From: Adineta ricciae
Lineage: Eukaryota; Rotifera; Eurotatoria; Adinetida; Adinetidae
Direction: 5' to 3'
Length of the DNA stretch: 64,000 bases
NCBI GenBank assembly: GCA_905250025.1
Contig: CAJNOJ010000292.1
Location: 60,520-124,519 of the forward strand
Positions within the stretch are counted from its first letter, which is position 1; every line of letters starts with the position of its first letter. Under the pieces are notes generated by a model. That model did not search any database. It was not told the DNA's origin and saw only the letters and a list, made by a program, of their open reading frames with translations. Both the position numbers and the translations under genes were made by a program. Of this stretch, positions 28,556 through 60,259 are shown piece by piece.

Positions 28556-28916
28556 CCCAATTATACTCAGGCAAACATAAAAAGTTGTATTTTTTAACGA
28601 ACTTTATTGAAAAAAAATTAATGATCTTATAACAACACTTAGCCACATATTGAATAACGTCTCATTTATGTTCTTGAAATACTTTCTCTTTAAGGAATAG
28701 CAATATGTGTCACCTATCTACACCTCACTCTTCAATAATTCAGATTTGAAGAGATTATGAGTTATGATGTCAATAGTACCTACTGTGTTTGGTTACTCTA
28801 TATGCTATTAAAAGAATGTATTAACATCAATAGAATAATTAAGCAACAACATAAACTTTGTTTTAATCAAGAATTGATGTAAAAATAGCAAAAGAGTTTT
28901 CATAGTTTTAATCTAC
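28556..28916. other. intergenic
   Basis: AT-rich sequence between the fragment above and the 3' end of the GPCR gene. Nothing recognised. Confidence 0.4.
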
Positions 28917-29876
28917 TCAACGGCATCGGAAAATACGTTTTAATTCTGTACGAAAATTCTTTGATATAAGGATATTTGCGTAACAACTGATGCTCGAGTC
29001 AATAAAACCTGTGAAATATGTTATATTTGCAATGAATTGTTCAATTGATATTTGCGCATCACTCTTCGTTTCATGTTGAGTAATTTGTTGATAAATAAGA
29101 AAAATTGTAGATGGAAATCTTGAAATAAGATAAATCATAATTTCCATGAATACTATTCGAATAAGTTGACGATCTTTTGAATGAATTGCGTGTGGTCTAC
29201 CTGCTGCTATTGTTTCAATTATTGATGTATGAGAATGATGTCTAACTTGAGAGACTTGACGAATATTTCTTAATGTTAAAAATCCAAATATTCCCATTAA
29301 TACCGGTGGAGTAATTCCAACAATGAAAAGTGAATAAAAGGTTATGAATGCTGTATATAATCCTGCTTGATAATAACATAAAAAGTAATTTGGTGCAATT
29401 TGTATGATGTTTATATAGATAAATATATGAATTTGAAATAATGCCCAAAACAAAATTGAACTGATCAGACATAGAAGAACTAAACGTCTTGTACTTCGTT
29501 TTCGTATTCCTGCATTTCGAGAAGTGACTAATGTTCGCTCAATTGATGTGATAATTAGATAAGTTGGACCTAGAATACTAAGAATAAAATCAACATAATA
29601 AAAACATCGACAGAAAACAATATTGCTTGTTCCAGGATTGATATTAAAACCACTTTGAAGTATTGTTGGAAGCAAACCTAAATAAAGGTATAATAAATCA
29701 ACAGTGCTAATACCCACAAAGCACATTGCACAAGGATTTTTTCGTAAAGAGTTGCTCGTAAATACTATTAAATTTAATATACAACTTAAACTACCGATAG
29801 CTAATAATATTATACCAGCAATTTGAAATAATGATGATAATATTGACATTTTACCGTAAATTATTTCTACTAACAA
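28917..29876 (-). CDS. rhodopsin-class seven-transmembrane receptor (peptide-receptor-like)
   Basis: A 319-residue intronless frame with seven hydrophobic helices: about 13-35, 45-70, 88-112, 132-154, 175-200, 240-262 and 278-300. TM3 ends in ITSIERTLVTS, a variant of the E/DRY motif. TM1 has GSLSCILNLIVF with the conserved Asn. TM7 (SSISCYANILIS) lacks a clear NPxxY proline, as in other bdelloid orphan receptors. It should signal through G proteins at the plasma membrane; the ligand is unknown. Similar FMRFamide/neuropeptide-like receptors are greatly expanded in bdelloids. A second Met at residue 10 (MSILSSLFQ) is an alternative start. Confidence 0.8.
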   Translation of the reverse strand: MLVEIIYGKMSILSSLFQIAGIILLAIGSLSCILNLIVFTSNSLRKNPCAMCFVGISTVDLLYLYLGLLPTILQSGFNINPGTSNIVFCRCFYYVDFILSILGPTYLIITSIERTLVTSRNAGIRKRSTRRLVLLCLISSILFWALFQIHIFIYINIIQIAPNYFLCYYQAGLYTAFITFYSLFIVGITPPVLMGIFGFLTLRNIRQVSQVRHHSHTSIIETIAAGRPHAIHSKDRQLIRIVFMEIMIYLISRFPSTIFLIYQQITQHETKSDAQISIEQFIANITYFTGFIDSSISCYANILISKNFRTELKRIFRCR

Positions 29877-30366
29877 TCATGTAGTTACTTAGTATAGATT
29901 TTATAGAAGATGTAAAAGTCAAAATGTAGGATGAATAAGTAAGGTTGATTAACAAAGAACATTGCATTCTATAGAGAAAAAAACGCAAATTGACCTATTT
30001 ATACGTTGAAATAGTCAGATCTAGTTATTAAAATTACTTATAAACAATTTCTATTGAAATGCCAAAAATATATTTTTCTGTCCTTTATCTGCTACACTTT
30101 ACATAATTACATTCTAATACTTATGAACTTGAGAGAGTTGATAAATCATTGTTTCCAGTTGGACATTTTTCTTAAATAAAGCAGTTCCCCAGGTGCATCA
30201 ATCCGACAATCTGGCCGCCGATTGTGATTTTTTGAAAAATAGGAATCCTTATAGGGCTGCTTTCTTTCGAAAAAAAGGATTTTCCGTCAAAAAATAGGAT
30301 AGCATCTTTAAATTAAAAGGTACGTTTTGTCGATTTGTCCTACTGAAAATCTAAAAAATATACTTA
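29877..30366. other. intergenic
   Basis: Upstream region of the GPCR gene up to the target-site duplication of the transposon. No gene or repeat recognised. Confidence 0.4.
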
Positions 30367-30374
30367 GGATATCT

Positions 30375-30396
30375 CAAGGGGGAATAAACTGATTTC
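30375..30396 (+). repeat. left terminal inverted repeat, 22 bp
   Basis: Starts CAAGGGGGAATAAACTGATT and is the exact reverse complement of 35645-35666. It is preceded directly by the 8-bp target duplication GGATATCT at 30367-30374. Confidence 0.95.
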
Positions 30397-30401
30397 CAGC
30401 T

Positions 30402-30535
30402 CAGAAATCACTTGAAATCAAATGAAATCACAGAAATCAAATGAAATCACGGAAATCAAATGAAATCATTGAAATCAAATGAAATCAAATGAAATCACAG
30501 AAATCAAATGAAATCACTTGAAATCACCGGAAATC
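30402..30535 (+). repeat. left subterminal GAAATCA array
   Basis: About 14 copies of GAAATCA spaced mostly 9-10 bp apart, often as GAAATCAAAT or GAAATCACAG. The motif is also part of the inverted repeat. Such arrays are usual transposase or accessory-protein binding sites near transposon ends. Confidence 0.85.
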
Positions 30536-30977
30536 AATGGATATTCCTTCCGATAATAAGTTTGAATATTTCATTAACTCTTTTGATATCAAATACAGAA
30601 TAAGAAAATATTGCAAATCTATCTGAGTTTGATGATCTCGACGTGCGAAAACATGATGCTTGAGTAATGTAACATGAAGGTAATGTTTCTCTTACATGAG
30701 TTATACATTTTCAACTGTTCATAACCATTGTTTTGCGATGTAATTTGAAAGCAGGCTCATGCAAATCATCCATAAGTATCATAAAACCACAAATAGACAT
30801 TATTATTCAAGCTTGACAGTTCACGTGTTTTTTTTTCATTCTGTTCGCATGTATTTTCCATATAATTGTTTAACAGCCAGAAATTTGTTCATCGTCATTT
30901 ATATCTTCGCTAACGGACAATCGTCATCCTTCTACCCGCTTCACATCGCTCGTTTGTATCATCAACTCACATTAAAT

Positions 30978-32305
30978 ATGTCGAAGAAAAGCAACAATTT
31001 ACCATACGATGTCATTGAACTCGAAAACGAACCATTTTACCAATTTGTAAAGAAATTTGCAGGCGACAAGGTTGTATCGCTTCTTCAGTTTCAAGATATC
31101 GATAACGTTGAATGCCTTATGGCATGTAGCGATCCGTTTGAGATTTTATCGTACGATTCAGATGATCTACTTGACCTGAAAAAGAAAACCTGTTTGAAAT
31201 TGAAAACAAATTCACATGTTGTTTTACCAGGGATCAAAAGCAAAATGAAACTTTTGAAAAAAGCATTAACAAGGAAATATGACGAAATCAAAAACGTAAC
31301 AACAACTTTTTCTAATCAATCTATGTCGATGGACACATCTTTTACTAACTCAACAGGTAATTATTTCGATACTTTTACAAATTCATTCACGTGTACAAAT
31401 TAGTAGATAATGCTCTTCCAAACACTACCAGCTCAACTTTAGAAGAGAATGTTAAAATCCATTTGATTAATTCAATGAAAGAGTGGTGTCGAAAAACGAA
31501 ACAGGATAATGCACAACGAACTTTGGATATGGTAGAAGGAACAGATTATGAAATTGTTGTTGATTGTACGTCGAACAAAGTTTACATTAAATGTCAATGT
31601 GGTAAAACTTCGACATTAGGACAAAAGAACAATTTGTTTATAGTAAGTCATTTAACTCTGATGAGTATAGCTTCAGAAGGATAGTTAGACATAGGTTTGC
31701 GAACTCTAGGATTTTTGACGTAGAGAATAACGAATATTCAGTTTTTGTACTTGTCTTTGAATGAACATCACCTTGACTGAGCATTGTTTGTTTTGAAAAA
31801 ACCTCACATGGATTGTCATTCCATTCTATTATCTTTCTGATTGTTCTTTCTAAAAGAAAATTACATGAACATTAAGAGGACATGATCGATCTGATGTACT
31901 CATATCGATATTATTCTTGAAACTCTTCCTTAAGATCTTATTGATGCTTATCTGTTCAGGTTCGTCAGAAGGCGTATTAATTATATGCATTGTACCGCGT
32001 TCCCTATTCCTCGATTAGTAACATTATTTCGCGTATAATAAAATGTTTAATTATTTTAGTTATCTAATTATATTCGTCACTTAACAAGCGAAAATCCATG
32101 TTCTATGGTTCGGGACAAATTGGAAAATAGTCGTGACACTTTGACTGTCGGCGCTGTCGATACATTCGATAATGATGATTCGAGTTTATCTCCTGGTTTA
32201 CCAGCCGATGGTTCTCCGAGTTCAAGTTCATCGATTTCGAAATTGTCGAAAAGAAAAAGAAGTGCGAAATCATCGTCTACAACAAAGAAAACGAAGACTG
32301 TTTGA
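30978..32305 (+). CDS. transposon-encoded zinc-finger protein, 3 exons
   Basis: Exons 30978-31356, 31404-31642 and 32060-32305 join in frame (phases 1 and 0) to give 287 residues. Residues about 10-100 form a helical domain (DKVVSLLQFQDIDNVECLMACSD...YDSDDLLDLKKKTCLKL) that is also found at the N terminus of the transposase candidate in the same element. Around residues 190-222 the splice joins YIKCQCGKTSTLG...FI to LSNYIRHLTSENPC, giving a C-x-C...H...C zinc-finger-like pattern (C2HC, BED-like). The tail is Ser-rich and ends with a basic nuclear signal (KLSKRKRSAKSSS...KK). It probably binds the GAAATCA arrays or the ends. The finger appears only when the 417-bp intron is removed. Function is inferred. 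Confidence 0.65.
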
Positions 32306-32644
32306 ATTCATTTGTTTATTTTGTATTTCTATTGTATTTAAGCAGTTTTTTATTTATCTTTGTACGATTTGACTTTTATGATATTATTTATTTCTATAGG
32401 ATTGATGTCATATAAGCACTTTGATAAAATATATTTGATATTAAATTGATACAAATATATCTTATGGAGAAGAGGATTGAAAAGTCATAGATGATATGGA
32501 CTATTCAATGAGTGAAAACCCATATTTTCTTCTCATTGCAAACTGACTGAGATGCGTGCTGATTTTGAGTGACATTCCTTAATATCTATTCTCAAATCAT
32601 TGAAATATGATTATGTTTTTGATCATGTTGTAGAGATTTAAAAG

Positions 32645-35236
32645 ATGGCAAATATTGCTTCTAGAAGTGACTTCACAGATGATATTCTATCATTTTGTGA
32701 TGATGATTTCTACAATTTAGTTCAACAGCAGTGTGGTGCGATTGCTTTGGAAATTATAAAAGCTCAAGATATTACATCAATTAGTTGTCTACTGGATATT
32801 AACAATATATTTGATTTTCTGCATCTTGACTCGGATGAATTAATTCCATTGAAGAAAAAAGCTGGTGTCATACTGAAAGATGGTCGCTTAATTATCAAAA
32901 CGGGACTTGAGCACAAAGTTAAGAGTTTTCTGAACAATCTTCATTGTCTAAATCAACAACGTTCAACTACCTCTTACAATTCAGATCGTTCTCTTGATAT
33001 GACTGTTCCTGAACAACTATTACACATGTTTCCGTTCATCCGAACCCTTATCAACTGTTCAAATCTGATTACAAAAAGTGAAATTAATTTTACCTTTTTC
33101 AATGCAATGTTGAATAATATGGTTAGAAACTTCATTACTGAAGAACAAGGTTATCGATATGATTCAACTGTTCGACAATTTGCAAGCTGTTTATATATCC
33201 TTGGTGGCCGTACAGCGTATGAATTTGTACGTTTGAATCTTCCGGGTTTTCTTCCAAGTGTACAAATTATTCAATCAGATATTAATTCGTTCAAAAATCA
33301 TTTATCTGAAGGACAATTTAATTATGACTATGCTCATGAGTATTTCCAATTAAATAAATCAACAATCGGTTTTTGTGCAGAAGACTGTACTGCGATCATA
33401 CCCAAAATCACATATGACACAAAATCGAATGCATTTATTGGGTTCTCATTACCTCTTGATAAAAATGGGATACCTCTTAACAGTTTCTATTCAACGTCAT
33501 CTTTCACTCGTTTTGAAGAATGGTGTTCTAATCTCTCACAAGCAAATCTGTTAAATGCTTGTCTCATTCAACCACTCTCTTCTTCAACCGAAAACATTTC
33601 TCCGTATCTTCTTGCTGCTTTTGGAACCGACAACAGATTCATATCATCAGACATCATTGCACGTTGGCTTCACATTTATGAAGAATGTAAGACAAAAGGA
33701 ATTAGAATTATTGGATATGCAGCTGATTGTGACAGTCGTTACTTACGTGCAATGAGAATATCTCTCGGATTTTTCAGTTCTTTTCGATATCATGACCGTT
33801 CTGATCTTTTTGAAATTGAGCTTCCATCTAATTGGTCTTGGTTTTTTATGCAACCGGAGCAATTATATGTGTGCATTCAAGATCCAATCCACATTTGTAC
33901 AAAACTACGTAATCGACTTTTGTCTACAACTGCAACTCTTGTTTTGGGCAACCAGTTAATTAGCACTAAACCACTTTTTTATTTAATTGATAATTTTTCT
34001 AAATTTGACCATGCGCTTGTACCATCCGATGTTAACGTTAAAGACAGGCAAAACTTTCAATCGTGTGTGAAAATATCAAGTCAAAATGTAATCAATATGC
34101 TCGAACACGTTCCGGATTCGATTGGTATTATCATTTACTTGAAGGTTAATAATAGAGAAGTTTTGCAACCGAAAAAATCAAGTGTAGTCTTTAATTTTGA
34201 TTTGTCTTTCTAGGCCATACAAAGCATTCGACTTGCTTATATTGAAAAAAGTACAAGTGTTGTCGATAGAATTTTCCATGCATGGTTCGTAGTGTTCATT
34301 TTTCGGCTTTGGTTTGTGTGGTTGAATTCTACGAAGAAACATGATCTTGACATAGCTTTTACAAAATTATCTAGATCGGATATATCTGATATGGAGAAAA
34401 AGAAAACAAAACGTAGCTATTTCGTTACGTATCAATCATATTTCTCAATGGAAATCAATGCTCATAGTTTAACATATCTTGCTGTCTTAGTGTCAGAAGG
34501 AACCCTTCCTTCTGAGGCTCTTCATACGTGGTTACAAAATTCGCAGAGTTGCGAAAGCACTTTTCGTTCAGCCAGATCGATATCCAGCATTAGTTCATCA
34601 GGAGTGAATTTTACAATTTCACAATTCTTATCTCGAATCAACAAATTCTTCATGTTAAATGACATAAAAACTCATGCACATGAAAATAAATTACGTTTCC
34701 CTAAACACCACAAACTGTCGTCAACACTGCCGTATGCTTCGAATTCATCAAACGTAATGATTATTTCAAAAATTGATATTGAAAATATTGTTATTAATGC
34801 CTTTCAAAGTGCAATTGAACTTTTTAAACCAATCAATATTGAAGAAATTTCCTCAAGTGAAACGTCAATATCGATCAATGATCTTAGCGACAAGGTTTCA
34901 CGTCATTTAGATGACTTTTGGATCACAGAAGATAGTTCTCGCGACGACAAAAATTCAGATTTTGCCACTGAGTCTGATGATGAATTGGACAATGACGATA
35001 ATACTGATGAATATATGACACTGAATAGCAGTTTTGACACCATAGATGATGTTCGTGAATGTGATACGGGCTTTAGGTTGGTTGATAATGTGAAAGAAGA
35101 ATTTTCTCAAAACTACTTTCATATTAATGTTAATGGAAACAAAAAGTATCTTCACAAACAGACCGCATGTTGGTATCTGCAAAATGATAGATGTTCTTTA
35201 TCGTCAGATCGATTAACCCGCGTTCAAGGTGTATGA
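32645..35236 (+). CDS. DDE-like transposase candidate, 2 exons
   Basis: Exons 32645-34144 and 34214-35236 give 840 residues; the 69-bp intron is phase 0. Residues about 15-110 repeat the helical domain of the neighbouring zinc-finger gene (IIKAQDITSISCLLDINNIFDFLHLDSDELIPLKKK; positions 32750-32860). Three acidic candidates fit an RNase-H-like catalytic triad: Asp247 in CAEDCTAIIPKITYD, Asp361/Asp363 in GYAADCDSRYLRAMR, and Glu614 in NSQSCESTFRSAR. After that there is an acidic, low-complexity stretch (DDELDNDDNTDEY) and a conserved-looking end (KYLHKQTACWYL...LSSDRLTRV). The layout recalls P-element/THAP9 transposases, where the Glu lies in a QDxxE helix, but the match is weak. It is intact and probably autonomous. 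Confidence 0.65.
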
Positions 35237-35433
35237 AAAATTCTAGCTGTATTAGGACTCTTTGTTTTCTTTCTTTGTAGAGTTTTTTCAATAAAATTCA
35301 TGAATTAATAGCGTAGGCTCAAGCAAAATGTCAACATTAGTTATAACAGAACATTTCTCTCTGTTATAAAGAGAACTACTGAGAGTTCAAGTGATTCCTG
35401 GATCAATATGCGATGAATCAGAATTAGCTGAAG

Positions 35434-35643
35434 TCACAGAAATCACCCGAAATCACAAGAAATCAGTGAAATCACTCGAAATCATCAGAAATCAGTGAAA
35501 TCACTCGAAATCAGTGAAATCACTCGAAATCAGTGAAATCACTCGAAATCAGTGAAATCACTCGAAATCAGTGAAATCACTCGAAATCAGTGAAATCACT
35601 TGAAATCATCTGAAATCAAAAAAAAATTTGAAATCCAGAAATC
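35434..35643 (+). repeat. right subterminal GAAATCA array
   Basis: About 20 GAAATCA motifs, mainly as a 19-bp unit GAAATCAGTGAAATCACTC repeated several times in tandem. They have the same plus-strand orientation as those at the left end, so the arrays are direct, not inverted, relative to each other. Confidence 0.85.
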
Positions 35644-35644
35644 A

Positions 35645-35666
35645 GAAATCAGTTTATTCCCCCTTG
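35645..35666 (-). repeat. right terminal inverted repeat, 22 bp
   Basis: Exact reverse complement of 30375-30396 and followed directly by GGATATCT at 35667-35674, the second copy of the target duplication. Confidence 0.95.
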
Positions 35667-35674
35667 GGATATCT

Positions 35675-37249
35675 TTGTGCAGGATTCAAAATTTTCTTGA
35701 GCTGATTCGTTTCAGTGTTGGTTCCAATCGAACTAATACTAGTTCTAAATACAACTTGATGCGCTCTATCGGTTCTAAAAACAAAATTTTGGAAAAAGTC
35801 TCTCCCTGATCCTCGAAAACTCAAAAAACGTCAAGATTTTAGAAAAACTCGGACGGATTCGTCCAACAATCACCTACCTCGATTTCAACACTGGTTCAAG
35901 ATCAAACTCGATGAGCTCTATCGGTTCCAATCATAAAAATATTCACACACACCCTCAAGATATCTTCCCATTCATAAGCTCAGGTTGAAAGGAGAAGTCT
36001 CGAGAATCGTTTAAAAAAGGCATTCCTTCTTGTCTAATAGTCGTGTGTCTGATCTCGAAACGAAACTATATAGATTATTGCTGAAAGGACATTTTACAAG
36101 AGGTCCTTTTTAGTGAAAGACATCAAAGTCGAGGACATCTATCGTCAACAAATGCTGTACGAAGATCAAATTTCGGGAACATTTTGCACCAGGACGAAAG
36201 CACCAGGACATTTGTATACATATTCCTCATTTCTCTGAGATCAAACTAAAAAATAAATCGTAACCAAATTATCATCAGGCAAAACAAACGTTCCATAGAC
36301 ACCACGAGATGTACAAAGAATTTCAGCCCAAAAATCTCTTTCATTCTAGGTATGCACCAAATCCAACTCCAATCGAATTCAAATCCTATTCTAGAGTTGG
36401 ATTTGAATCATTAAGTTAGGGTTGGATGTGGGTTTGACAAGATTTGAAATTGGATTTGATCAGATTTGACTGAAATCGCTCGCAACGCTGATTAGATTTA
36501 AATTCAAGCTTTCTTGAATTTCATTTTAACGCGAATTAATAACAAATTAGAGTGAATGTGACCTGACACATTTTGCAGAGGTCTCTGACTTTCTTCATGA
36601 AAAGATTCGAATACGTTCAAATGTTGGTTAGAATTTTATTGTTTTTTTTCCAGAGTTGTGTCACCGATTCTGTGTCGTGTGAAAATAATGAAGATTTGGT
36701 TGGATTTGACAGTGAAATCCGATCAAACACAAATCTTGTCAAATCCATTTCAAATTCAAATCCACTCAGCTCCGATCCAATCTAGGAATTGGAACTGATT
36801 GGAATTGGATTTGCTGCGTATCTGTTTCATTCATTTACAAAACATTTTAAATCTTTTGCGGATTTCCTTCCTACCTCAGCATTTACCATTAAAAAAGTCA
36901 AAACCATATGGTCGTACCAATTCTCTTACAACATGTTCAATAAATCTATCGAGCGAATTTAATAGCAGCTTTTGCAAATAAAACATCTCCAAAGTTCATT
37001 AAAAATATTTTTATGTATTTTGTTCTGATGTACAGCTCTACTCTAATCGATGCTTTTTGTAACGGTCAAAATCCTAGCTTGATACTCCTCGCTGTCGCTG
37101 AGTTATTTAACAAACAACCAACTTCACTCTGTTTCGAAATGAATAATGCACACAAACATATCTATTTAGTTTGACTGCCAATATGTACATAATCTACAAC
37201 GCTTCTTTTTATATAGCATAATAACATAAAAACATCTCAGTATTCGTTA
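35675..37249. other. intergenic containing a MITE
   Basis: Apart from the element at 36353-36818 nothing is supported. Short frames around 35600-35810 and 36573-36981 are not convincing. Confidence 0.4.
36353..36818. mobile_element. MITE candidate with TA target duplication
   Basis: The ends are imperfect inverted repeats: left GCACCAAATCCAACTCCAATC (first base excluded), right GATTGGAATTGGATTTGCTGC, with three or four mismatches in 22 bp. Both are flanked by TA (36351-36352 and 36819-36820). The interior contains many further TTGGATTTGA/TCAAATCCAA units in both orientations and no coding capacity. This fits a Tc1/mariner-mobilised MITE. Confidence 0.6.
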
Positions 37250-49525: not shown

Positions 49526-52500
49526 TTATTCAAGTACTGTTTTTAATGTACTACTTTGATACTGATCGCTTTTTCCTCTAATTCTAATCAATTGTTTAAT
49601 TAATCCCGGTAATTCATAAACCTTCTTAACGTCTCCTACAATACTTTCATTAATAATAGAATGAAAAATATTTTGAAGATCAATTCTAAATTGATTTTCT
49701 GTTTCGAGTAAGATTTGATCATTTGAATTAGCTAATTTAATTGCTAAATTCGAAGTTATGAAATTATTCATAAGATAATGTTTCGACTCCAATTCAGTAT
49801 GGATTCGTTTCGATATTGCTTTGTCCTCATGTAAACGGTCACTCTCGACAAGAGCAACACATTTTTTTATAACATCAATTTCATTCATATTATAATGACA
49901 ATCTCCATTAAATAATCGAATGATAGTTGCAACATCCTTCTCTTCTTTTGTTAATTTTGGAGCATTTATTGGAATCATAATCGAACCATCTATATCATCG
50001 ATATGTATTAGTCTTACTGTAGAATCTATTCTTTTCTGACATAATTGAATAAGATGTTTAGCTTCAAACGCAGAAATAATTATAAAAGACGTTTCTCTAT
50101 CCGTTTTATGAATTACTATCATGTTTACTGGTTTCAAATAATCATTCTGATATTGTCTATTTTTCTTATCTATAATATCGGTTGTTTCTATAAAATTATT
50201 AGTCGCAAGAATTTTACTATTCCATTTTAACGTTTTTAAACCATCAATATTTGTAAATTCAAAACATTTATTCAATTCTTTCAATACTGGATAATCTTTT
50301 TCTCCTCTTAATCCTTTCTCTTTAAAATCTTGTTCGAAAATCATTTGAAAATTCCAAATAATCTCCCTTATTGGTACTGAATATTTTACATAAGCTATCT
50401 CAATACGCTTTATTTCTTCAGTCTCTCTTTCATTTTCTTGATCACCATTGAATTCAGTATTAGTTGTTAATATTTTGCTAGGAAGTTTGCTATATACTTT
50501 TTCTATTATACTTCTCATTTTTTCTCTATCAGTATCTTCGCTTATAGTAAGAATTTTTCCATGTAAGTCTGAGGATTTTACCTTTTCCTTCAGTTCATTT
50601 TGAAAAATTGGATAAAACCGACCTAGTAAAGCACTCATACTATGATGTAAAAGATCTCTTGGATTTCTTGGTTGAGGCGTTTTTCCATAGAAATGTTCAA
50701 TACTATCTACGTATTCACTGACAAATACTTTTATAAGAGAATCCAATCGAATATCTAGAAATAGTTTTTGAAACTCAAGTGCTCTACTTTTAATAATATA
50801 TTGTAATTTTTCTTTCGTAACAAGATATAAATCATTTTCATTTGTTTGAATTGTATTATAAGTAACCCATGTTAAAACATGTTTACTATTTATATCATCT
50901 GGTTTAATTCCATTTACCATTGCAATATCTGCTGAGATTTCTTTCGAACCCCATAGTACGATTGATTGTTTATAATCAAGATCGCGAAGACGCATAACTG
51001 CTTGCATTAATTTATCTTTACTCATATGTTTTCCTAATGTTACAATTCCATTTGCAGTTAATGGTAATTTCAAATCAGTTCCACGAGTATGAACTTCATC
51101 GAAGTAAATAAATAATTTCTTAATATCGATATGACATGTTGATATCGGTAAACAATTTTCATTTCTTAAAATAACCATTATTTGGTTAGTTTTATCAGAA
51201 AAATAGACAATTCCATCAAATCGTTGATGGATTTTCTTAATAAAATACTTCGATACATCAAAATTACTAATTTCTGTAATCATAGCACCTGCGTCAATTA
51301 AAGTATAACAGTCCTTATTTATTTTTACATATTCACAAACTTGATCTAAGAGATTCAATGTATTAGATATTTCTAATTTAGATTGATATTTAGTATTTAT
51401 TTTTCGAGATAAAATATGTAACATCTTACCATTTGTTCCCTCTTGAGATGTTAGTAATTTTGGAATAATAGATTCAGGCATAGTATCATTACAATCATTA
51501 GTACCCGAAAATCCTTTTGTTTTTCCTTCACCTGCTAATGTGTGAGCATTTCCTGTAAGTTTCTTTTCATAATATTTGGCATCATGTGGAAATGTGAAAT
51601 TACTTAAATAATATTGAATAAAATTAAAATTTCGAGAAAGATAGAGATAAACTTTTCTAATTCTATTTTCATTTTCAAGATCAAATGTTCTGAAAGATTT
51701 TAACCATTGTGGAAAACGTTGATTTTCTTTTTCACTCAATTCATGAATCCATGTTGTATTTTCTTCAACCCATTGTTTTAATAGAACATCTTTATCTTGT
51801 CTTGGATCATTTTTTAATTTAATTAATCCATCTTTTACTTGACTTAAATCTAAACCTCTATATAAATAACTAATAATTGTAAAACCTATCATAACATCAG
51901 GATGACTATATTCAGAATTTTCAGATGGTAAATCTTTTCCTCGAAATGGAATAGCAATTTCTTTATCTTTTTTATCAGTTAATCCATATTCAACTCGATA
52001 TCGATAATTCATTACATGATAGAGTAATTTATGAGATAACCAAGCTTTTGCTAATAAAAAACAATTTAACATTTGACGATTTTTTGTTCCTAAAAAATGA
52101 ACAATTTCATTTTTCTCGGATAAATATTTTCCTGCTACAAAATTCTCATAACTTCCATAGTTTTTACCATTTTCATCGATCATATCTATGTTTTCTTCAT
52201 GAAATTTTAAACGCAATATTACACAAAGTTTCTGACAAAGTTTTGTTTTGATGTTTTCTACAAAATATTCATATTTAAGAAAACGTATGAGAGAACATCC
52301 TCCTCCTATTCCACTTAAGGGTCGAAAATTTTCTTGAAAAATAACAGGACAATCATTGTTTTGTGAAGCATGTTTTAAAAATTTGCCAAAATCAATATCA
52401 GTAAAAATGATTTTAAATAATAAGAATGGAATTTCCCAACGATCTTCACCACCATCTAAAGGTTGAGCTAAACCCAATGTATAATTTAATTCTTTTTTAT

Positions 52501-55500
52501 GACGTAAAATTTCATCAGATTCATCTAATATATCAAAAAATGTAAATTGATCGATTAGATCAAGTAAATCTAACTGTTGTTTCACGTATTTTTTGTGTTT
52601 TGTTGAATAATATTTTAAAATATGAAATGCATCTTTAATATTCAAAGAATCTTCTTCACTATTTTTACTTCGTATCTCTTCAACAAAAGTTTCAATTGTT
52701 TCACAAGGATATTTCAATATTTTATCTCGAGAATCTATATATTTCAATGATCGTAATGTTTCTTTTAATGTATTACTAGAACGAATTAATTTATATTGTG
52801 TTTTAGTAGTTTGTTCTTCATATACTTTCCAATTAAAAACATCATCCGCATTTTCTGATTGTACATATTCTAAAATGATTTCTTGTTTTTTTAATTGAAA
52901 GCATAAACGTTGTGCAGGTGTTACTAATAGAATATGTTTTTCTCTTTGACATTCAATAAGTATTTCTTTAATTTTTTCCAGATTTTCAATTGAAAATAAA
53001 ACTCCTCTTGAATATGGTAACATATAAATTTTCTTTTGTAATAATCTACTAAATTTATTTCTCAATAATTCATACATAACACCTATTAGTGGTTCTAAGC
53101 AATTTATTCTGACAATTTGTTTAGTATTAGCTAATATTTCACTAAGTATAATTAGAATAACTGATGTTTTACCTTCTCCCATATTTAATTGATAAATACT
53201 ATTCTCTTTTTCTTCTATCATTGTTTGTATAAGAGTAAATTGTGTATTGCGAATTAAAAGATTATTTTCTATTTCAAATAATAACCAAGATGGATATATA
53301 TTTTCATTATAAGATCGTTTCATTAAAAGATTTGTTAGAATATTTTCTAAAATTCTTTCTTTTTCTTCATAATTATTTTCTAAATCTAATGATTTATATT
53401 GATAAACTAATAAAAGAACTCTTCGAATTTGTTGAATTAATGTTTGTTGAATTGAATAAATTTTGATTTTTTCATAGAATATTTCTTTTTGATTTAGAAT
53501 AAAAGGATTAAATTCACTAAATTGATCGATATTTTTCAATAAAGATAGAATTTCTTTTCTACTTGGATTTCTTTCTTCTCCTATAATCAAACGTAAAACA
53601 AATAGATTTATTTCATCAAATTCATATTCAATTACAGGAATCATATTTTGATATATTTCTTTAAATAAATTTTCATTCGTTCTATCGAAATCGAAATAAT
53701 ATTCAATTAAGATACGAACAATATTATCGAAATTATATTCAGATTTCAAATGAATTTTCTTTTGTGGTGTTTGTAAATATCCGATAATTGTTGAATTAGT
53801 TATAGATTCTTCTGAGATTTCCTGATTTATTTCTATTTCATAAAATTTATCTTGATTTAACCAGAATTGAAATTGTTTTTTATATTTGTCATTTCTATAG
53901 GTATACTCTTCGATTTGTTTTAATTCGAATACTGTATTATCTAATTTTTCATAGATTATAATATTAATTTGTTTTCTTCGAAATATTAACATAAAAATAT
54001 ATGGATTTACAATATCATATTTATAACAATAGTCGAAATATTGTTGAAAAAGATAATTATTTTCAAGAAGAAAATCTTTTATATTGTCTTCCATATCTTC
54101 TAAAGTTCTGAGCCAATACTTCGCATCTTTTTTAAGATTATTATCACTCTTGAATTTTTCTAACTGTTGTTTAAGTTCTTCTAATGTAAGAATTTCAAAT
54201 ATAATACATCGTTTAATTAATTCATGATTGATATTCTGATATAGATTCTCTAACTCTATTCTCATATTTTTTATTTTGTTTCGTTCCCATTCTGAAATAT
54301 ATTCTTTGGAAATTTCATTTTTAATCCATTGTTCAACATGAAAAAGTAATTTATTTTTCATTTCATTGAAATTATCTTTTAAATTAGACAATTCTTTTCT
54401 ATAATCATATTGGAATTCTTTTAAAATTTCAATACCTAATTTGGGTTCTTTCATAGAAAAGTGAAAATATTTTTCATTAATTTTCACTATTGATAAATCT
54501 TGTCCATAACTTTCTTTCAGATTAGAAATAAGGTTTTTTCCATATCCACTTGAAAATACTTCTTTCAAAATAGAATTATTAGAAAGAGTATCTAGATCGA
54601 GAGGAAAAGGTAATTTCTCAGGATAAGAAGTACTTGTCTGAAAATAATTTTCAAGATGTTTATAATATTTTTCTATATCAATATTTTCTACTTTCCATTT
54701 TAAATCATATATATCATCTTTACTGATGTTTCGATATGAATAATTTTCATTAATCTCATTCTTTCTATCTTCAATAGATAAATTCATATTAAGACTTTGT
54801 AAACCTGTTGTATTGATAACATTATAACCTATGTCATAATGACAAACTATTTGTTCACATTGATGAGCAATATCAATTAAAAATTCATAAAAGTCGTTAT
54901 ATCGAATTTTAACAACAAGAATTTGATATAATTCGTTCAAAAAAGTAGTGGAAATATTATTTTGCTTTATTATTGGTTCGAAATTTCTCTGAAATTCTAG
55001 TCGGAAATCTGAATTTACAGAATCTGCTACACTATATTTCGGTTTTAGTTCTTCATTGAGATAATTCTTCTTTAAAGTTGACCAAATTGAATTAGAAATT
55101 TCATTATCAAGATTTGTCTCAATATTATTAATCATTGGAATGTCAGTTTTATGAAATTCAATTGAATAATTATCCAATTTATAACTTTGCTCACAATTAA
55201 TCTCTTTCGTTGGTAATAAAAGAAAATCTGGTAAAGGCTTAAATAGATGTGACAACAAAGAAACTATGTACAAAATTCTTACAAAAATCTTGTTTTCGTC
55301 AGATGCATTTAAAAATAAACAAATCAAAAAATATTCAAAGTTGTTTTTTATGAAATTATTAGTCATTCCTATATCTAAGGCTGTTCTATAAAGAGAAACG
55401 AAATAGGAAAAATTAAAATTGAATTGAATCCAATGATTAAATCGATTTGTAAATCGATAGATTTTATTAGAATGCGAATAAAGAGAACGAGAAAACCAAA

Positions 55501-58500
55501 GTGATAAACTTTTCTTTATTTCTGTAATGAATTTAAAATTTTGAAATGATTCTTTTGATATAAAAGACTTTTGTAAACGTTTATAATCAATTGGATTATT
55601 TGTTGATAATTTTAATGTTTTGAAATGATTTATAAATTGAAAATAATCGAAAATTCTTGAATTAGGATAATTTTTTACACAAAATAATAATAATTTCTTT
55701 TCTTCTTCGAGACTTAATCGACATCGTTTGTCAATACGATTTTTAAAAATTAAATAAAAATTCAAATGATAATTTAGAAAACCATTTTCTATAAAATACG
55801 AATAAAATCTTTTCTCTTTATTATCTATTTTAATTAGAAAATCTGTTTGATAACTATCGATTAGAAGATATATTAAACGAAGTAAAATAGCATGAGTATT
55901 ACGATGAAAAGGAGTTAATCCACAAGTAGAGATTTCAAATATTTCTTTTAAATTAATATCATTTGAACAAGGTTCTTCTAAATTTAAAAATCTCTTATCA
56001 AAAAAATTTAAAATAAGATTAAATTCTATATCTGAATATGGATTGGATTGCCAACATGTTTTAAGAATTTCTACGCATATTTCATAACCATTCATTTGAA
56101 GAAATAAATCTTTATCTAATGTAGCAGTCTTAAAATAGAGAAGCGCAAGATACAAATTTCCAGCTGTTGTTTCTGCATTAATCCATTTAAGATTTTCATC
56201 AATTTCATATGAAAAATATCTTGGTTTTCCGAGTTTATCTAAATTTAATTTAATTCTATTATCAAAGAATAAATCTTCTTTTTCAATACGACAATAAGGT
56301 ATAATTATTTTCTGATTACATTTTATTGGATTATCATATTCCATATCTGTTTCTAATACTAAATATTGTGATAATCCATTCAAAGTATCAATATGTTGAT
56401 TTGAACTTAAACGATAATCTTTAAAAACTTCAGATAAAATTTTGTTATTTTCAAATTTAAATTTTAAATTTAATCGTAATAAATAAATCATCTTTGGTAC
56501 ATCGTCTTGTAAATTGTTTTTCAATACTAATATATAATTATCATTTTCAATTTGAGAAAATGTTCTATATAAAATATTTGATTGATCAAATTTATGTTTA
56601 ATAAAAGGAATAATATACATATTATGTATATTTGAATAAATTTCTTTATTTTTTAAATCTATTTCAAATTGAATCTGTTTATTTTGATTTTTAATATAAA
56701 TCTTATCATTCTTATACCAATGATTATAAAAAAGAATTTTTTCATTTTCATAATATGAACAATCTTTAATCAAGAATTTTGGTAATTTACTTAAATAATT
56801 TCTTGAAACAAATGTTTCATCATTATTTTCAATCCAGATTTGATTATTTGCCAATAAATTAATTTGAACATTACTCTTCGCTTTGTAACAACGTAATCTA
56901 CAGTCGAAAGCATGTCTTTCACTAATCTCTACAAGAAAATTTTCTTTTCCAAAGCATTCTTCATAATGTGAATTATTAAGAATTCGACTTGGTAAACATG
57001 TCAATGAATGACCATTTTTCAATATACGACCTTTCAGAGGTATAAAGGAGTAACAACTGTTAAGATAGGAGTTCGTTTTTGTATCTTTTTTCCATAATTC
57101 ATTTGAATGATTAAGAGAAATATTTAATATATCTAAATTCTTATCAATAATATTTTCAATTTTTGAATTTAAATTAAAAAGAACTCTCATTGTTTTAATA
57201 TATAAACTAGAAGGTACAGAATAGTTCAATCGAAAATTATTATCTATCAGTATTCGGAATTTGAGTATTTCTATAACATTTATTTTATCGAACATCGTGA
57301 CGTGTTTATATGTTAAAATAAAATAGCAACTCAAGATAGATGTTATAATTTGATTATCTTTCAAAGTTGACGCACTTTCCGTCGATATATATGTCGAGAA
57401 TGAGTTCTGAAGTTCTTTTAAACAGTTATTAATTTCAGTTTTTAAACTATTAGAGCAAAAATCGTACAAATACAGTAATATATCTATAGCGTGTCCTATC
57501 GATTTATACTGTGTAAGTTTTTCCTTTAGATCTAAAGTTATTTTAATAAATATATTGATAAATACATGTGCAAAATTTTTGTTCTGAAAATCTTTTTCTA
57601 AAATACAATTTAAATTCGAGGATACTGATTTATATAAAGCTTGTTTAACTAAATAACAATGTTCTTCTATTTCAAAATTAATCTCTTCATTTTTTAATCC
57701 AATATATAACAATATATATCTTAATTCATTATATAATTGAATACATCCTAAACGATAATATTGTGGTCGAGTCAAATTATCTGGTTTTTCATTTTGACTG
57801 CTAATCATTTTATTTTCATCCATATAAGATTCACTTTCTATTGAACATTTAAATGCAATTAATCTTTGGTATTTGTTTTGTTCTCTAACGAGTACAAAAT
57901 CAGTACATTTTCTATTATCAACATACGAATCTATTTTATTATATAAATCGGTATTAAGATCTCTATCGCATTCATATTTAGAATCACAATGAATAGTATT
58001 ATACTCATTTGTTAACGATGTTTGTTGTTTTAAGTGTTGTATCTGATAACGACCAGTAAACTGTCGTAGTAAAAAGACTTTATTTTGAGAATTAAACATG
58101 CTTTTGTTATATGATGAATATCGTGTTTTTTCAACTGTTTGTTTAGAAAATCCATATAGAGATAGTCGTGACAAATATGAGATCTCTCTCAAAGATATTA
58201 ATAATATTGGTATATACTTATCAGTAAATAAAAGTTCACACCATCTCTCTGTCAATTTATTCACTTTAACATCTTGGAGAGTTTCTTTAAAACTCGAATA
58301 AATGTCTGGAAGACTATTTATTAAGACATTTAATATATAAATTACATCAGTATTCGTCCTATCAGAGTCTTCTCTTATAATAAGTGACGACCAATGAAAA
58401 AGATAAAGTTTCTCTGTTGTACTTTGTTCATTATTCACTGAAGATAATTCATAATATTCTTTAATGTTTTTCAATAGATAAAACCACTTGCTCTCTGGTA

Positions 58501-60259
58501 AAGCTAATTGTGGAAGAATTGATTGTAGAGAAATAGTCTGTAATTCAGTACTTATCTTATAATTTCTAAGACTAGGACCAATCTTGTCATCATTTCTAAC
58601 TATATCTTCTATAATAATAGAAAGACTAAATAGAATAAGAACTAATTGTGTATAATAAGTTGGATCATACGAACGATTTTCATCAGGATATAACTCTGAA
58701 AAAATGATTGCTGAGCAATTATAATACAAATATCCAATTTGAACTAACATCTTAACTACTATTAGATTGGACTTTGAATCACTGTACCAGTTTTTAAAAC
58801 GATTTTCTTTAACAATTAAAAATACAAAGTTTTCTATTAACTGACAGATCTGAATTACTCGGTTAAATCCATAATTTTGAGTCAGTTCATCTAACATTTT
58901 AGAAAGAACAATTATAGTATTATTTTGATTTTGGCTAAAATTAAAGCTCACAAAAGGAATTTGTTTTCGTACTATACTATTCTGTAAAGAATCGAAATTG
59001 TTAATAATATCTTTCTGAATAAATTTTAATCCTTTTAAATCATCTGATAATAATGTCTCAAAATTATTACGATAATATTTTATATTTTTGATTGTTTTTT
59101 TATCTCGCTCTTCTTTGTTTAGTATCAAATTCCTATTCATAATACTCTTTTGAACTGTCAATATATAATCAACAATTGTTTTCTTCGAAATCTCTCGATT
59201 AATTACAACATCATATGCTATTTTGTTGCACATTTCATTCAGTAAAAAGTTATATTTTAAATGATTTATAATAGAACCAGTTCTTGCTTGTTTATACTCG
59301 TGGAAATAATTTGTTAGTAAATAAAAATGAAATTTGCAAAGTATTTTCATATATAAAGAATGCGCTTCTTGATGGTTAAAGAATTTTTTCAACAAATAAT
59401 AAAATACATTCTTTATAAGTGTCCAAGATAAACTAAAATATCCTTTCTCTTCAATATCAACAAAAAATTCTTTTTCATTTTTTAAATTTCCTTCTCCCGC
59501 TAATTTAGCGATAACAACTTCGTAAAGATGTTCCAGTTTATACGCTGTGTCACTTCGAATAGTTTTAAGTGTTACGAATGGTAAGAAAAAATTATCATCG
59601 AACTTATCATTTGGAATTCTTTTTATTTCTATTCCTAAACTAATTTTATCTGTAGTGAGTTCACGCAGCGATCTATGATAAGGACTTATTGTATCCATCT
59701 GAATTAATGATTTGAATTCTTTACTGTCACATTCAATAATGGAGGCAGCGAAGTATGGACCACTATATTTATTTTCTAGCATAAGAAAATCTGAATGATT
59801 GGAATTACTGAGAGAAACTTGCGCAAGACCGCTCGGTAAAACGCAGATATCTTGAAGATCGCGAATTTTCTTCTGTAATTTAGTGACATAGTTCTTCAAA
59901 TTTTGATCTTGCTCTGATGATTTTCTAATACAATTCACTTCTTCCAGATCAACAAACCATTCTTCTAAAATCTTAACAATAGTCTTCATTCTATTCTTTT
60001 GCTCATCGGTAATAGAAAAAATCCTTCTAGCATAATCATTTTCTTCTGCGTTTTCAACCTTTGGAAATACATATTTTAGAAACAAACTTAATATTTCTTT
60101 TTCATCGGGAATCTCTAGTCCACAACCAACAGTTATATTGGAGCCATAGAAAATCGCAAAAAGCTCACCTCTCTTACCAACCATCAGTTCTGCAAAATTA
60201 TATTGAGTATATTCCGCAGTGAATCGTAATATATTGTCCATTGGGAAACTTGTAAACAT
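49526..60259 (-). CDS. giant DUF3638/DUF3645 SF2/SecA-like NTPase protein, 3577 aa
   Basis: A single uninterrupted exon of 10.7 kb. The N-terminal 2300 residues are helical, Lys/Asn-rich and without a family I can name. The NTPase core begins with YQLNMGEGKTSVILIILSEIL (Walker A, about residue 2360; DUF3638), followed by MLPYSRGVLFS and ILLVTPAQRL. A Walker-B-like DILDESDEIL lies at about 2575 and IPFRGKDLPSENSEYSHPDV (DUF3645) at about 2770. The second helicase half has FIYFDEVHTRGTDLKLP at about 3055 and KLMQAVMRLRDL at about 3088, equivalent to SF2 motifs V/VI. GEGKT and RGTD are also reminiscent of SecA. All core NTPase motifs are intact. Such 3000-residue proteins occur in fungi, protists and some animals, sometimes annotated as ubiquitin hydrolases, with no proven function. 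The absence of introns in an intron-rich genome suggests retro-copying or transfer. A second Met at residue 7 is an alternative start. Confidence 0.85.
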   Translation of the reverse strand: MFTSFPMDNILRFTAEYTQYNFAELMVGKRGELFAIFYGSNITVGCGLEIPDEKEILSLFLKYVFPKVENAEENDYARRIFSITDEQKNRMKTIVKILEEWFVDLEEVNCIRKSSEQDQNLKNYVTKLQKKIRDLQDICVLPSGLAQVSLSNSNHSDFLMLENKYSGPYFAASIIECDSKEFKSLIQMDTISPYHRSLRELTTDKISLGIEIKRIPNDKFDDNFFLPFVTLKTIRSDTAYKLEHLYEVVIAKLAGEGNLKNEKEFFVDIEEKGYFSLSWTLIKNVFYYLLKKFFNHQEAHSLYMKILCKFHFYLLTNYFHEYKQARTGSIINHLKYNFLLNEMCNKIAYDVVINREISKKTIVDYILTVQKSIMNRNLILNKEERDKKTIKNIKYYRNNFETLLSDDLKGLKFIQKDIINNFDSLQNSIVRKQIPFVSFNFSQNQNNTIIVLSKMLDELTQNYGFNRVIQICQLIENFVFLIVKENRFKNWYSDSKSNLIVVKMLVQIGYLYYNCSAIIFSELYPDENRSYDPTYYTQLVLILFSLSIIIEDIVRNDDKIGPSLRNYKISTELQTISLQSILPQLALPESKWFYLLKNIKEYYELSSVNNEQSTTEKLYLFHWSSLIIREDSDRTNTDVIYILNVLINSLPDIYSSFKETLQDVKVNKLTERWCELLFTDKYIPILLISLREISYLSRLSLYGFSKQTVEKTRYSSYNKSMFNSQNKVFLLRQFTGRYQIQHLKQQTSLTNEYNTIHCDSKYECDRDLNTDLYNKIDSYVDNRKCTDFVLVREQNKYQRLIAFKCSIESESYMDENKMISSQNEKPDNLTRPQYYRLGCIQLYNELRYILLYIGLKNEEINFEIEEHCYLVKQALYKSVSSNLNCILEKDFQNKNFAHVFINIFIKITLDLKEKLTQYKSIGHAIDILLYLYDFCSNSLKTEINNCLKELQNSFSTYISTESASTLKDNQIITSILSCYFILTYKHVTMFDKINVIEILKFRILIDNNFRLNYSVPSSLYIKTMRVLFNLNSKIENIIDKNLDILNISLNHSNELWKKDTKTNSYLNSCYSFIPLKGRILKNGHSLTCLPSRILNNSHYEECFGKENFLVEISERHAFDCRLRCYKAKSNVQINLLANNQIWIENNDETFVSRNYLSKLPKFLIKDCSYYENEKILFYNHWYKNDKIYIKNQNKQIQFEIDLKNKEIYSNIHNMYIIPFIKHKFDQSNILYRTFSQIENDNYILVLKNNLQDDVPKMIYLLRLNLKFKFENNKILSEVFKDYRLSSNQHIDTLNGLSQYLVLETDMEYDNPIKCNQKIIIPYCRIEKEDLFFDNRIKLNLDKLGKPRYFSYEIDENLKWINAETTAGNLYLALLYFKTATLDKDLFLQMNGYEICVEILKTCWQSNPYSDIEFNLILNFFDKRFLNLEEPCSNDINLKEIFEISTCGLTPFHRNTHAILLRLIYLLIDSYQTDFLIKIDNKEKRFYSYFIENGFLNYHLNFYLIFKNRIDKRCRLSLEEEKKLLLFCVKNYPNSRIFDYFQFINHFKTLKLSTNNPIDYKRLQKSFISKESFQNFKFITEIKKSLSLWFSRSLYSHSNKIYRFTNRFNHWIQFNFNFSYFVSLYRTALDIGMTNNFIKNNFEYFLICLFLNASDENKIFVRILYIVSLLSHLFKPLPDFLLLPTKEINCEQSYKLDNYSIEFHKTDIPMINNIETNLDNEISNSIWSTLKKNYLNEELKPKYSVADSVNSDFRLEFQRNFEPIIKQNNISTTFLNELYQILVVKIRYNDFYEFLIDIAHQCEQIVCHYDIGYNVINTTGLQSLNMNLSIEDRKNEINENYSYRNISKDDIYDLKWKVENIDIEKYYKHLENYFQTSTSYPEKLPFPLDLDTLSNNSILKEVFSSGYGKNLISNLKESYGQDLSIVKINEKYFHFSMKEPKLGIEILKEFQYDYRKELSNLKDNFNEMKNKLLFHVEQWIKNEISKEYISEWERNKIKNMRIELENLYQNINHELIKRCIIFEILTLEELKQQLEKFKSDNNLKKDAKYWLRTLEDMEDNIKDFLLENNYLFQQYFDYCYKYDIVNPYIFMLIFRRKQINIIIYEKLDNTVFELKQIEEYTYRNDKYKKQFQFWLNQDKFYEIEINQEISEESITNSTIIGYLQTPQKKIHLKSEYNFDNIVRILIEYYFDFDRTNENLFKEIYQNMIPVIEYEFDEINLFVLRLIIGEERNPSRKEILSLLKNIDQFSEFNPFILNQKEIFYEKIKIYSIQQTLIQQIRRVLLLVYQYKSLDLENNYEEKERILENILTNLLMKRSYNENIYPSWLLFEIENNLLIRNTQFTLIQTMIEEKENSIYQLNMGEGKTSVILIILSEILANTKQIVRINCLEPLIGVMYELLRNKFSRLLQKKIYMLPYSRGVLFSIENLEKIKEILIECQREKHILLVTPAQRLCFQLKKQEIILEYVQSENADDVFNWKVYEEQTTKTQYKLIRSSNTLKETLRSLKYIDSRDKILKYPCETIETFVEEIRSKNSEEDSLNIKDAFHILKYYSTKHKKYVKQQLDLLDLIDQFTFFDILDESDEILRHKKELNYTLGLAQPLDGGEDRWEIPFLLFKIIFTDIDFGKFLKHASQNNDCPVIFQENFRPLSGIGGGCSLIRFLKYEYFVENIKTKLCQKLCVILRLKFHEENIDMIDENGKNYGSYENFVAGKYLSEKNEIVHFLGTKNRQMLNCFLLAKAWLSHKLLYHVMNYRYRVEYGLTDKKDKEIAIPFRGKDLPSENSEYSHPDVMIGFTIISYLYRGLDLSQVKDGLIKLKNDPRQDKDVLLKQWVEENTTWIHELSEKENQRFPQWLKSFRTFDLENENRIRKVYLYLSRNFNFIQYYLSNFTFPHDAKYYEKKLTGNAHTLAGEGKTKGFSGTNDCNDTMPESIIPKLLTSQEGTNGKMLHILSRKINTKYQSKLEISNTLNLLDQVCEYVKINKDCYTLIDAGAMITEISNFDVSKYFIKKIHQRFDGIVYFSDKTNQIMVILRNENCLPISTCHIDIKKLFIYFDEVHTRGTDLKLPLTANGIVTLGKHMSKDKLMQAVMRLRDLDYKQSIVLWGSKEISADIAMVNGIKPDDINSKHVLTWVTYNTIQTNENDLYLVTKEKLQYIIKSRALEFQKLFLDIRLDSLIKVFVSEYVDSIEHFYGKTPQPRNPRDLLHHSMSALLGRFYPIFQNELKEKVKSSDLHGKILTISEDTDREKMRSIIEKVYSKLPSKILTTNTEFNGDQENERETEEIKRIEIAYVKYSVPIREIIWNFQMIFEQDFKEKGLRGEKDYPVLKELNKCFEFTNIDGLKTLKWNSKILATNNFIETTDIIDKKNRQYQNDYLKPVNMIVIHKTDRETSFIIISAFEAKHLIQLCQKRIDSTVRLIHIDDIDGSIMIPINAPKLTKEEKDVATIIRLFNGDCHYNMNEIDVIKKCVALVESDRLHEDKAISKRIHTELESKHYLMNNFITSNLAIKLANSNDQILLETENQFRIDLQNIFHSIINESIVGDVKKVYELPGLIKQLIRIRGKSDQYQSSTLKTVLE

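Follow-up and report, generated by a model that had tools for sequence, protein, structure and literature searches.

A two-gene transposon with a predicted P-type transposase and element-specific subterminal word arrays in the bdelloid rotifer Adineta ricciae

What kind of mobile element combines two genes, perfect inverted ends and a perfect 8-bp flanking duplication is the question raised by positions 30375..35666 (forward strand) of a 64,000-nucleotide stretch of Adineta ricciae DNA (contig CAJNOJ010000292.1, positions 60,520 to 124,519; this whole stretch is called the window below). A sequence-only reading had taken the 5292-bp insertion for a complete and young DNA transposon of an unclassified type, with no standard P signature. 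Our analysis makes it probable that this is a complete cut-and-paste DNA transposon, likely to be autonomous, of a P-fold lineage seen in bdelloid rotifers. Both the unclassified label and the missing P signature are revised here, as the larger of the two proteins has a P-type helix-turn-helix (HTH) and is predicted to have the fold of P transposase.

The two 22-bp terminal inverted repeats (TIRs; left CAAGGGGGAATAAACTGATTTC, 30375..30396, forward strand; right 35645..35666, reverse strand) are identical, as the sequence-only reading had stated, with no further match at up to 3 mismatches in the window and none in all 100 shuffles. The outer part of the left TIR, CAAGGGGG, is common to diverged relatives, and the inner TGATTTC contains a word of the element's own that is described below. 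Outside the ends lies GGATATCT, on the left at 30367..30374 and on the right at 35667..35674, so that the window reads TTA-GGATATCT-[element]-GGATATCT-TTGTGCAGG. This 8-mer alone is not rare (mean 1.88 copies expected per window). On its right the element is flanked by a dispersed host repeat, about 290 bp long (35667..35957, forward strand, outside the element), which is the target and is interrupted near its left edge. For comparison, 17 other copies that start near the left edge of the repeat were picked from 58 match pieces; two of these, L091 and L094, have near-identical left flanks and are possibly one locus. In each of the 17 the stretch occurs a single time within the 101 bp that were read (exact in 2, with one mismatch in 11 and with two or three in 4). 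The left flank varies among these empty sites; next come gta (15 copies; gga or ata in the remaining two), the GGATATCT-like stretch and ttgtgcagg or a variant; at L098 a second GGATATCT-like 8-mer lies 44 bp upstream, non-adjacent. Because the 8-mer stands directly outside the inverted ends and the empty sites have it in single copy, we regard it as a target duplication, and the pattern therefore places the insertion near the left edge of the host repeat with 8 bp duplicated. Across the family 12 end pairs were compared, and in 8 of them the flanking 8-mers agree at 7-8 of 8 positions, while of 132 cross-pairings just 1 does so; for this count the second reading of a nested L059 element and two alternative L063 pairings were dropped, and the window, L083, L081 and the outer L009 pair were added. 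One of these, L083 (C384), has ATTATTCA on both sides (8/8). The palindrome GATATC pointed out earlier is present in the duplication of the window, but as a target rule it is rejected, since ATTATTCA, CAAGATTA and TGAGATCC are without it.

The host repeat itself has a sharp left edge, (c)gta followed by GGATATCT, and carries the motif GATATCTT close to either edge; it looks like an independent family of miniature inverted-repeat transposable elements with tens of copies. C379 was considered as an allelic empty site and rejected, as its left flank matches at 93% up to 30156 and then diverges before the insertion point; it therefore gives no clean empty site, and the paralogous host-repeat copies were used instead. 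The homologous segment (window 28876-30156 against C379:37384-38667, 93%) ends about 220 bp before the insertion, C379:38600-39000 is without the element, and the segment may be an allelic or homeologous copy.

Gene 2 encodes the transposase of 840 aa on the forward strand. Its exon 1 (32645..34144, residues 1-500) holds an N-terminal domain shared with gene 1, the P-type HTH (residues 153-209), D247, D361/D363 and the start of the insertion domain. After an intron with GT..AG borders (34145..34213), exon 2 (34214..35236, residues 501-840 and the stop) holds the remaining insertion domain, E614 within SQxCExxFRxxR and an acidic C-terminal region. The protein is identical over its full length to the NCBI entry 'unnamed protein product [Adineta ricciae]' P0001, and the 287-aa product of gene 1 is likewise identical to P0121 of the same name; both entries are annotation only. 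Another annotation has therefore arrived at the same splicing, which is prediction and not expression evidence, and the claim of two open, spliced genes stands. The acidic positions, earlier called plausible, turned out to be conserved in nearly all relatives aligned (D247 in 69/71, D361 in 70/72, D363 in 72/72 and E614 in 58/59); the alignments, A1 with 72 rows and A3 with 20 rows, were chosen from 120 matches listed out of 184. The transposase is probably of the DDE type.

As for the class of the enzyme, the Pfam P-element HTH PF12017 matches at 24.2 bits (cut-off 23) and is present in 18 of 20 members scanned. The predicted model folds like P transposase, with an RNase H domain split by a helical insertion; hAT, Transib/RAG and retroviral integrase were all weaker matches as folds. 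No THAP domain match was found in the 840-aa protein or the 20 members, the region having the domain shared with gene 1 instead, and a whole-model structure search gave no fold assignment for this shared domain. Outside the HTH the searches found no similarity to known P transposase, nor a match to PF21787 in the 840-aa protein or the 20 members; one of the searches behind each of these negatives had no positive control. Proof of descent from P at the sequence level failed, and what carries the P claim is therefore the predicted fold together with the HTH. In an ungapped block alignment to P transposase, E614 falls on E531 (31/2000 shuffles), D247 falls on D230 as the second-best site only (1098/2000), and the D361 block fails to find D303. 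In the same alignment D528 of P, a contact of guanosine triphosphate (GTP) according to PMC7776569, falls on Q611, which is invariant in A3, and the other GTP contacts are not alignable; GTP use by the rotifer transposase is therefore uncertain. Going by sequence and model, a P-type catalytic core appears to have been kept, with THAP replaced by another N-terminal domain and a second gene added.

This second gene (gene 1, forward strand, 287 aa) has three exons: 30978..31356 with the N-terminal domain in common with the transposase, 31404..31642 with the CxC motif (C190, C192), and 32060..32305 with H213, C220 and a basic Ser-rich tail. The common domain covers about the first 110 residues of the transposase (blastp 57 bits; hhalign 98.9%, E 1.3e-17). 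In the C-terminal part, C190 is conserved in 22/22, C192 in 21/21, H213 in 9/16 and C220 in 8/9 sequences, the H213 misses looking like gene models that run into an intron; CxC is present in 5/5 genomic gene-1 copies examined. The structure model of this protein is poor and assigns it no fold, and its frataxin-like matches were too weak and were left unused. Pairs were counted from the rows of transposase and gene-1 genome matches. Among the 19 loci whose transposase match spans 300 aa or more, 13 had a separate gene-1 match within 5 kb (9 on the same strand and 4 on the opposite one). Eleven of these 13 matches extend into the C-terminal part, and those at C599 and C807 cover roughly the shared domain only. 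To our knowledge a single transposase gene is the rule in the P superfamily; here the window, L083 and L081 each have the second gene inside the same two ends, and L082, L084 and L085 yielded only a single end. Also, of 102 relatives of at least 600 aa that were scanned, four proteins, all from Rotaria, carry gene-1 sequence that precedes transposase-type sequence: P0002, P0006 and P0182 have gene 1 joined to another copy of the shared domain, and in P0008 the gene-1 sequence is C-terminal sequence. Whether real fusions or merged gene models, these proteins point to adjacency of the two genes in another genus.

The genome (130 Mb, 1033 contigs) was searched for copies with the same ends. With 2 mismatches allowed, the pattern CAAGGGGGAANAANNTGATTTC of the ends occurs at 50 places including the window's own two, against 0 for the reversed pattern, and the transposase gave at least 65 match pieces grouped into 31 loci. 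Among 17 nucleotide matches the focal locus is the sole full DNA-level copy and the others are fragments; the nearest are pieces of the left end on C679 and C957 (91-96%) and a match to an end on C146 (94%, about 65 bp), and the remaining ones are short pieces at 71-90%. Non-autonomous copies of small size, flanked by duplications, also exist, among them one on C31 (624 bp) and one on C526 (163 bp), and L083 is a diverged element of 4961 bp with complete ends (TIR CAAGGGGGAAAC), whose transposase match contains one stop codon, possibly intronic. The youth claimed for the element is only weakly supported: identical ends, an identical duplication and two open genes speak for it, and the lack of a second full copy in this search speaks against it. 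A long open frame in one relative was an artefact of unread bases, and in viral contigs 34 stretches fit a pattern, none of them being a relative. Nesting also occurs, in that 340-bp elements of the same family contain one of 153 bp with CAAGG ends (at L009:1548-1700 and L059:1641-1793; flanks GAAATCA-like). All named protein matches, among 120 of 184 and 120 of 133 listed, are from bdelloids (Adineta, Rotaria, Didymodactylos); the protein search needs shared 5-mers, and relatives outside bdelloids may therefore be missed.

The ends of these elements combine a constant edge with a variable word. Many ends were found by a search with CAAGGGGGAA-like patterns, so that their sameness is partly built in; a fairer test is the count of exact CAAGGGGG around transposase loci, which is present in the stretches of 13 of 16 loci against 0.54 expected from shuffles (16 of the 31 loci were counted, the C877 and C586 stretches having been chosen with their ends already known). 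Inward of this edge, a short word is repeated. In the focal element the word GATTTC occurs 15 and 19 times in the first 200 bp of the two ends, and when counted as GAAATC the left subterminal array (30404..30537, forward strand) has 14 copies spaced 9-10 bp, and the right one (35429..35652, reverse strand) has 16 within 160 bp on the inner side of the end repeat, the usual spacing again being 9-10 bp. C877 has ACTTC (8 and 6 copies at its two ends) and C384 has ACTCC (11 and 7), while words read at one end are GATTC in C419 (10), GATTG in C586 (11), GAGTTT in C789 (9), ACTTT in C468 (10) and GCATTT in C567 (7). This word analysis covers 11 of 18 ends, with non-autonomous and fragment ends excluded and the words chosen after looking. 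The words differ among elements (off-diagonal counts 0-2), and in each of the elements read at both ends (the focal one, C877 and C384) the two ends share one word. Spacing is mostly 9-10 bp, roughly one copy per turn of the helix, or about double, with C384 alternating between 8 and 11-12. The full word lies in the first 26 bases of 9 of 11 ends (6 of 8 elements; it is absent there in C789 and C567), and for 12 of the 18 ends a 6-mer of the inner TIR recurs more often than in any of 300 shuffles. A co-variation of the gene-1 C-terminal domain with the word was looked at and set aside as not clean.

Taken as a mechanism, the acidic triad D247, D361 and E614 would cut at the CAAGGGGG ends and join them to target positions 8 bp apart, and the word array would be a binding platform that selects which ends pair. 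The likeliest array reader would be the 287-aa protein with its Cys/His motif and basic tail, which may dock with the transposase via the shared N-terminal domain; DNA reading would thus be split from catalysis, as in En/Spm, on a P-type enzyme. The ends, the duplication, the predicted fold, the conservation, the gene pairing and the arrays are directly supported, and we infer cutting, docking and word reading by the element's proteins. Tentatively, and at somewhat less than even odds, we propose a separate superfamily-level lineage of P fold with two components, whereby the enzyme recognises the constant CAAGGGGG and the partner reads a helically phased, element-specific word, such that the partner can switch word with the enzyme unchanged.

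The main rival to this two-component proposal, in our view rather unlikely, is that the 287-aa protein is a repressor and not a required partner, limiting copy number by mixed oligomers via the shared domain or by competition for the array. The protein does have the shared N-terminal domain without the catalytic part, the focal element is known from one full copy only, and truncated P-element products act as repressors. On the other hand it has a conserved CxC and C-terminal part of its own, invariant at C190 and C192, and it accompanies many diverged transposases; both points suggest more than a poisoning role, though repression is still compatible with them. Unlikely too is an inactive relic, in which the intact frames would be luck or serve a host function. 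Activity is predicted from sequence and no near-identical second full copy was found in the genome, but the 840- and 287-aa frames, the clean splice sites, the identical TIRs, the perfect duplication and the acidic residues conserved in relatives argue against a relic.

We find it improbable that the word arrays arose simply by growth of tandem repeats at the ends and bind nothing. Tandem repeats expand by slippage, periods of 10, 19 and 29 bp are detectable in the arrays, and the top array 6-mer lies in the first 24 bases of 6 of 11 ends only. The inner-TIR 6-mer is also not significantly reiterated in 6 of the 18 ends (C764_R, C789, C468, C567, C5a, C679); these ends weigh against our own reading as well, as do L081 (C877), which has complete ends and a duplication match of 0/8, and three more end pairs that agree at just 5-6 of 8. 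Mere growth, however, does not sit well with a word that is constant while the spacers vary, that already lies in the outermost bases of most ends, that is the same at both ends where both were read and that differs by element. Lastly, a hAT-type element would have the 8-bp duplication, the short CA-starting TIRs and the reiterated subterminal motifs. The duplication length and TIR style fit hAT, with Hermes and Ac also sharing an RNase H domain with a helical insertion, and Hermes is among the predicted-fold matches. We nevertheless hold this to be very improbable, as no hATC dimerisation or BED domain was matched in Pfam (840-aa protein at E <= 10, 20 members at E <= 1) and the fold match is weaker than that of P transposase.

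Apart from the element, positions 50001-60000 of the window have a G+C content of about 23-27%, clearly below the rest. If the partner reads the word, the family would offer a natural series of at least 8 protein-DNA address pairs on one enzyme scaffold, every element keeping a private address code, and would show how transposons shift specificity and avoid one another's copies. The assignment also gives an identity to bdelloid proteins listed as unnamed, uncharacterized, hypothetical or 'THAP9-like helix-turn-helix', and provides an intact candidate for transposition assays from bdelloid rotifers, animals long regarded as asexual.

Among known systems, En/Spm of the CACTA group has two proteins, TnpA and TnpD, of which the accessory DNA-binding protein reads subterminal arrays. 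The likeness is in the manner of working only (two proteins and subterminal arrays), with no kinship by any test made; CACTA elements have CACTA termini, a 3-bp duplication and a different transposase, and membership is rejected given the CAAGGGGG ends and 8-bp duplication of the rotifer element. Literature titles and abstract starts named no two-gene P-type element and did not name the present family, Repbase being outside this scope. In the bdelloid transposable-element survey PMC7943196 'P element' is absent from the main text as available, and in the available part of PMC6431247 it occurs in the reference list only. The transposase of the Drosophila P element (PDB 6P5A, 6PE2) carries a THAP DNA-binding domain, as PMC7776569 describes, whereas the rotifer element has an unrelated-looking N-terminal domain with no THAP found, a second gene, a 22-bp TIR beginning CAAGGG and long word arrays, and sequence similarity is undetectable outside the HTH. 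Zebrafish Pdre2/THAP9, in the part of PMC10983969 at hand, differs in having THAP and, in place of arrays, 12-bp subterminal repeats, with no second gene mentioned there, and resembles the rotifer element in its 8-bp duplication, short CA-starting TIRs, internally deleted relatives and P-type enzyme. With the P superfamily as a whole, the rotifer element has in common the 8-bp duplication, the PF12017 HTH and, by prediction, an RNase H domain with a helical insertion.

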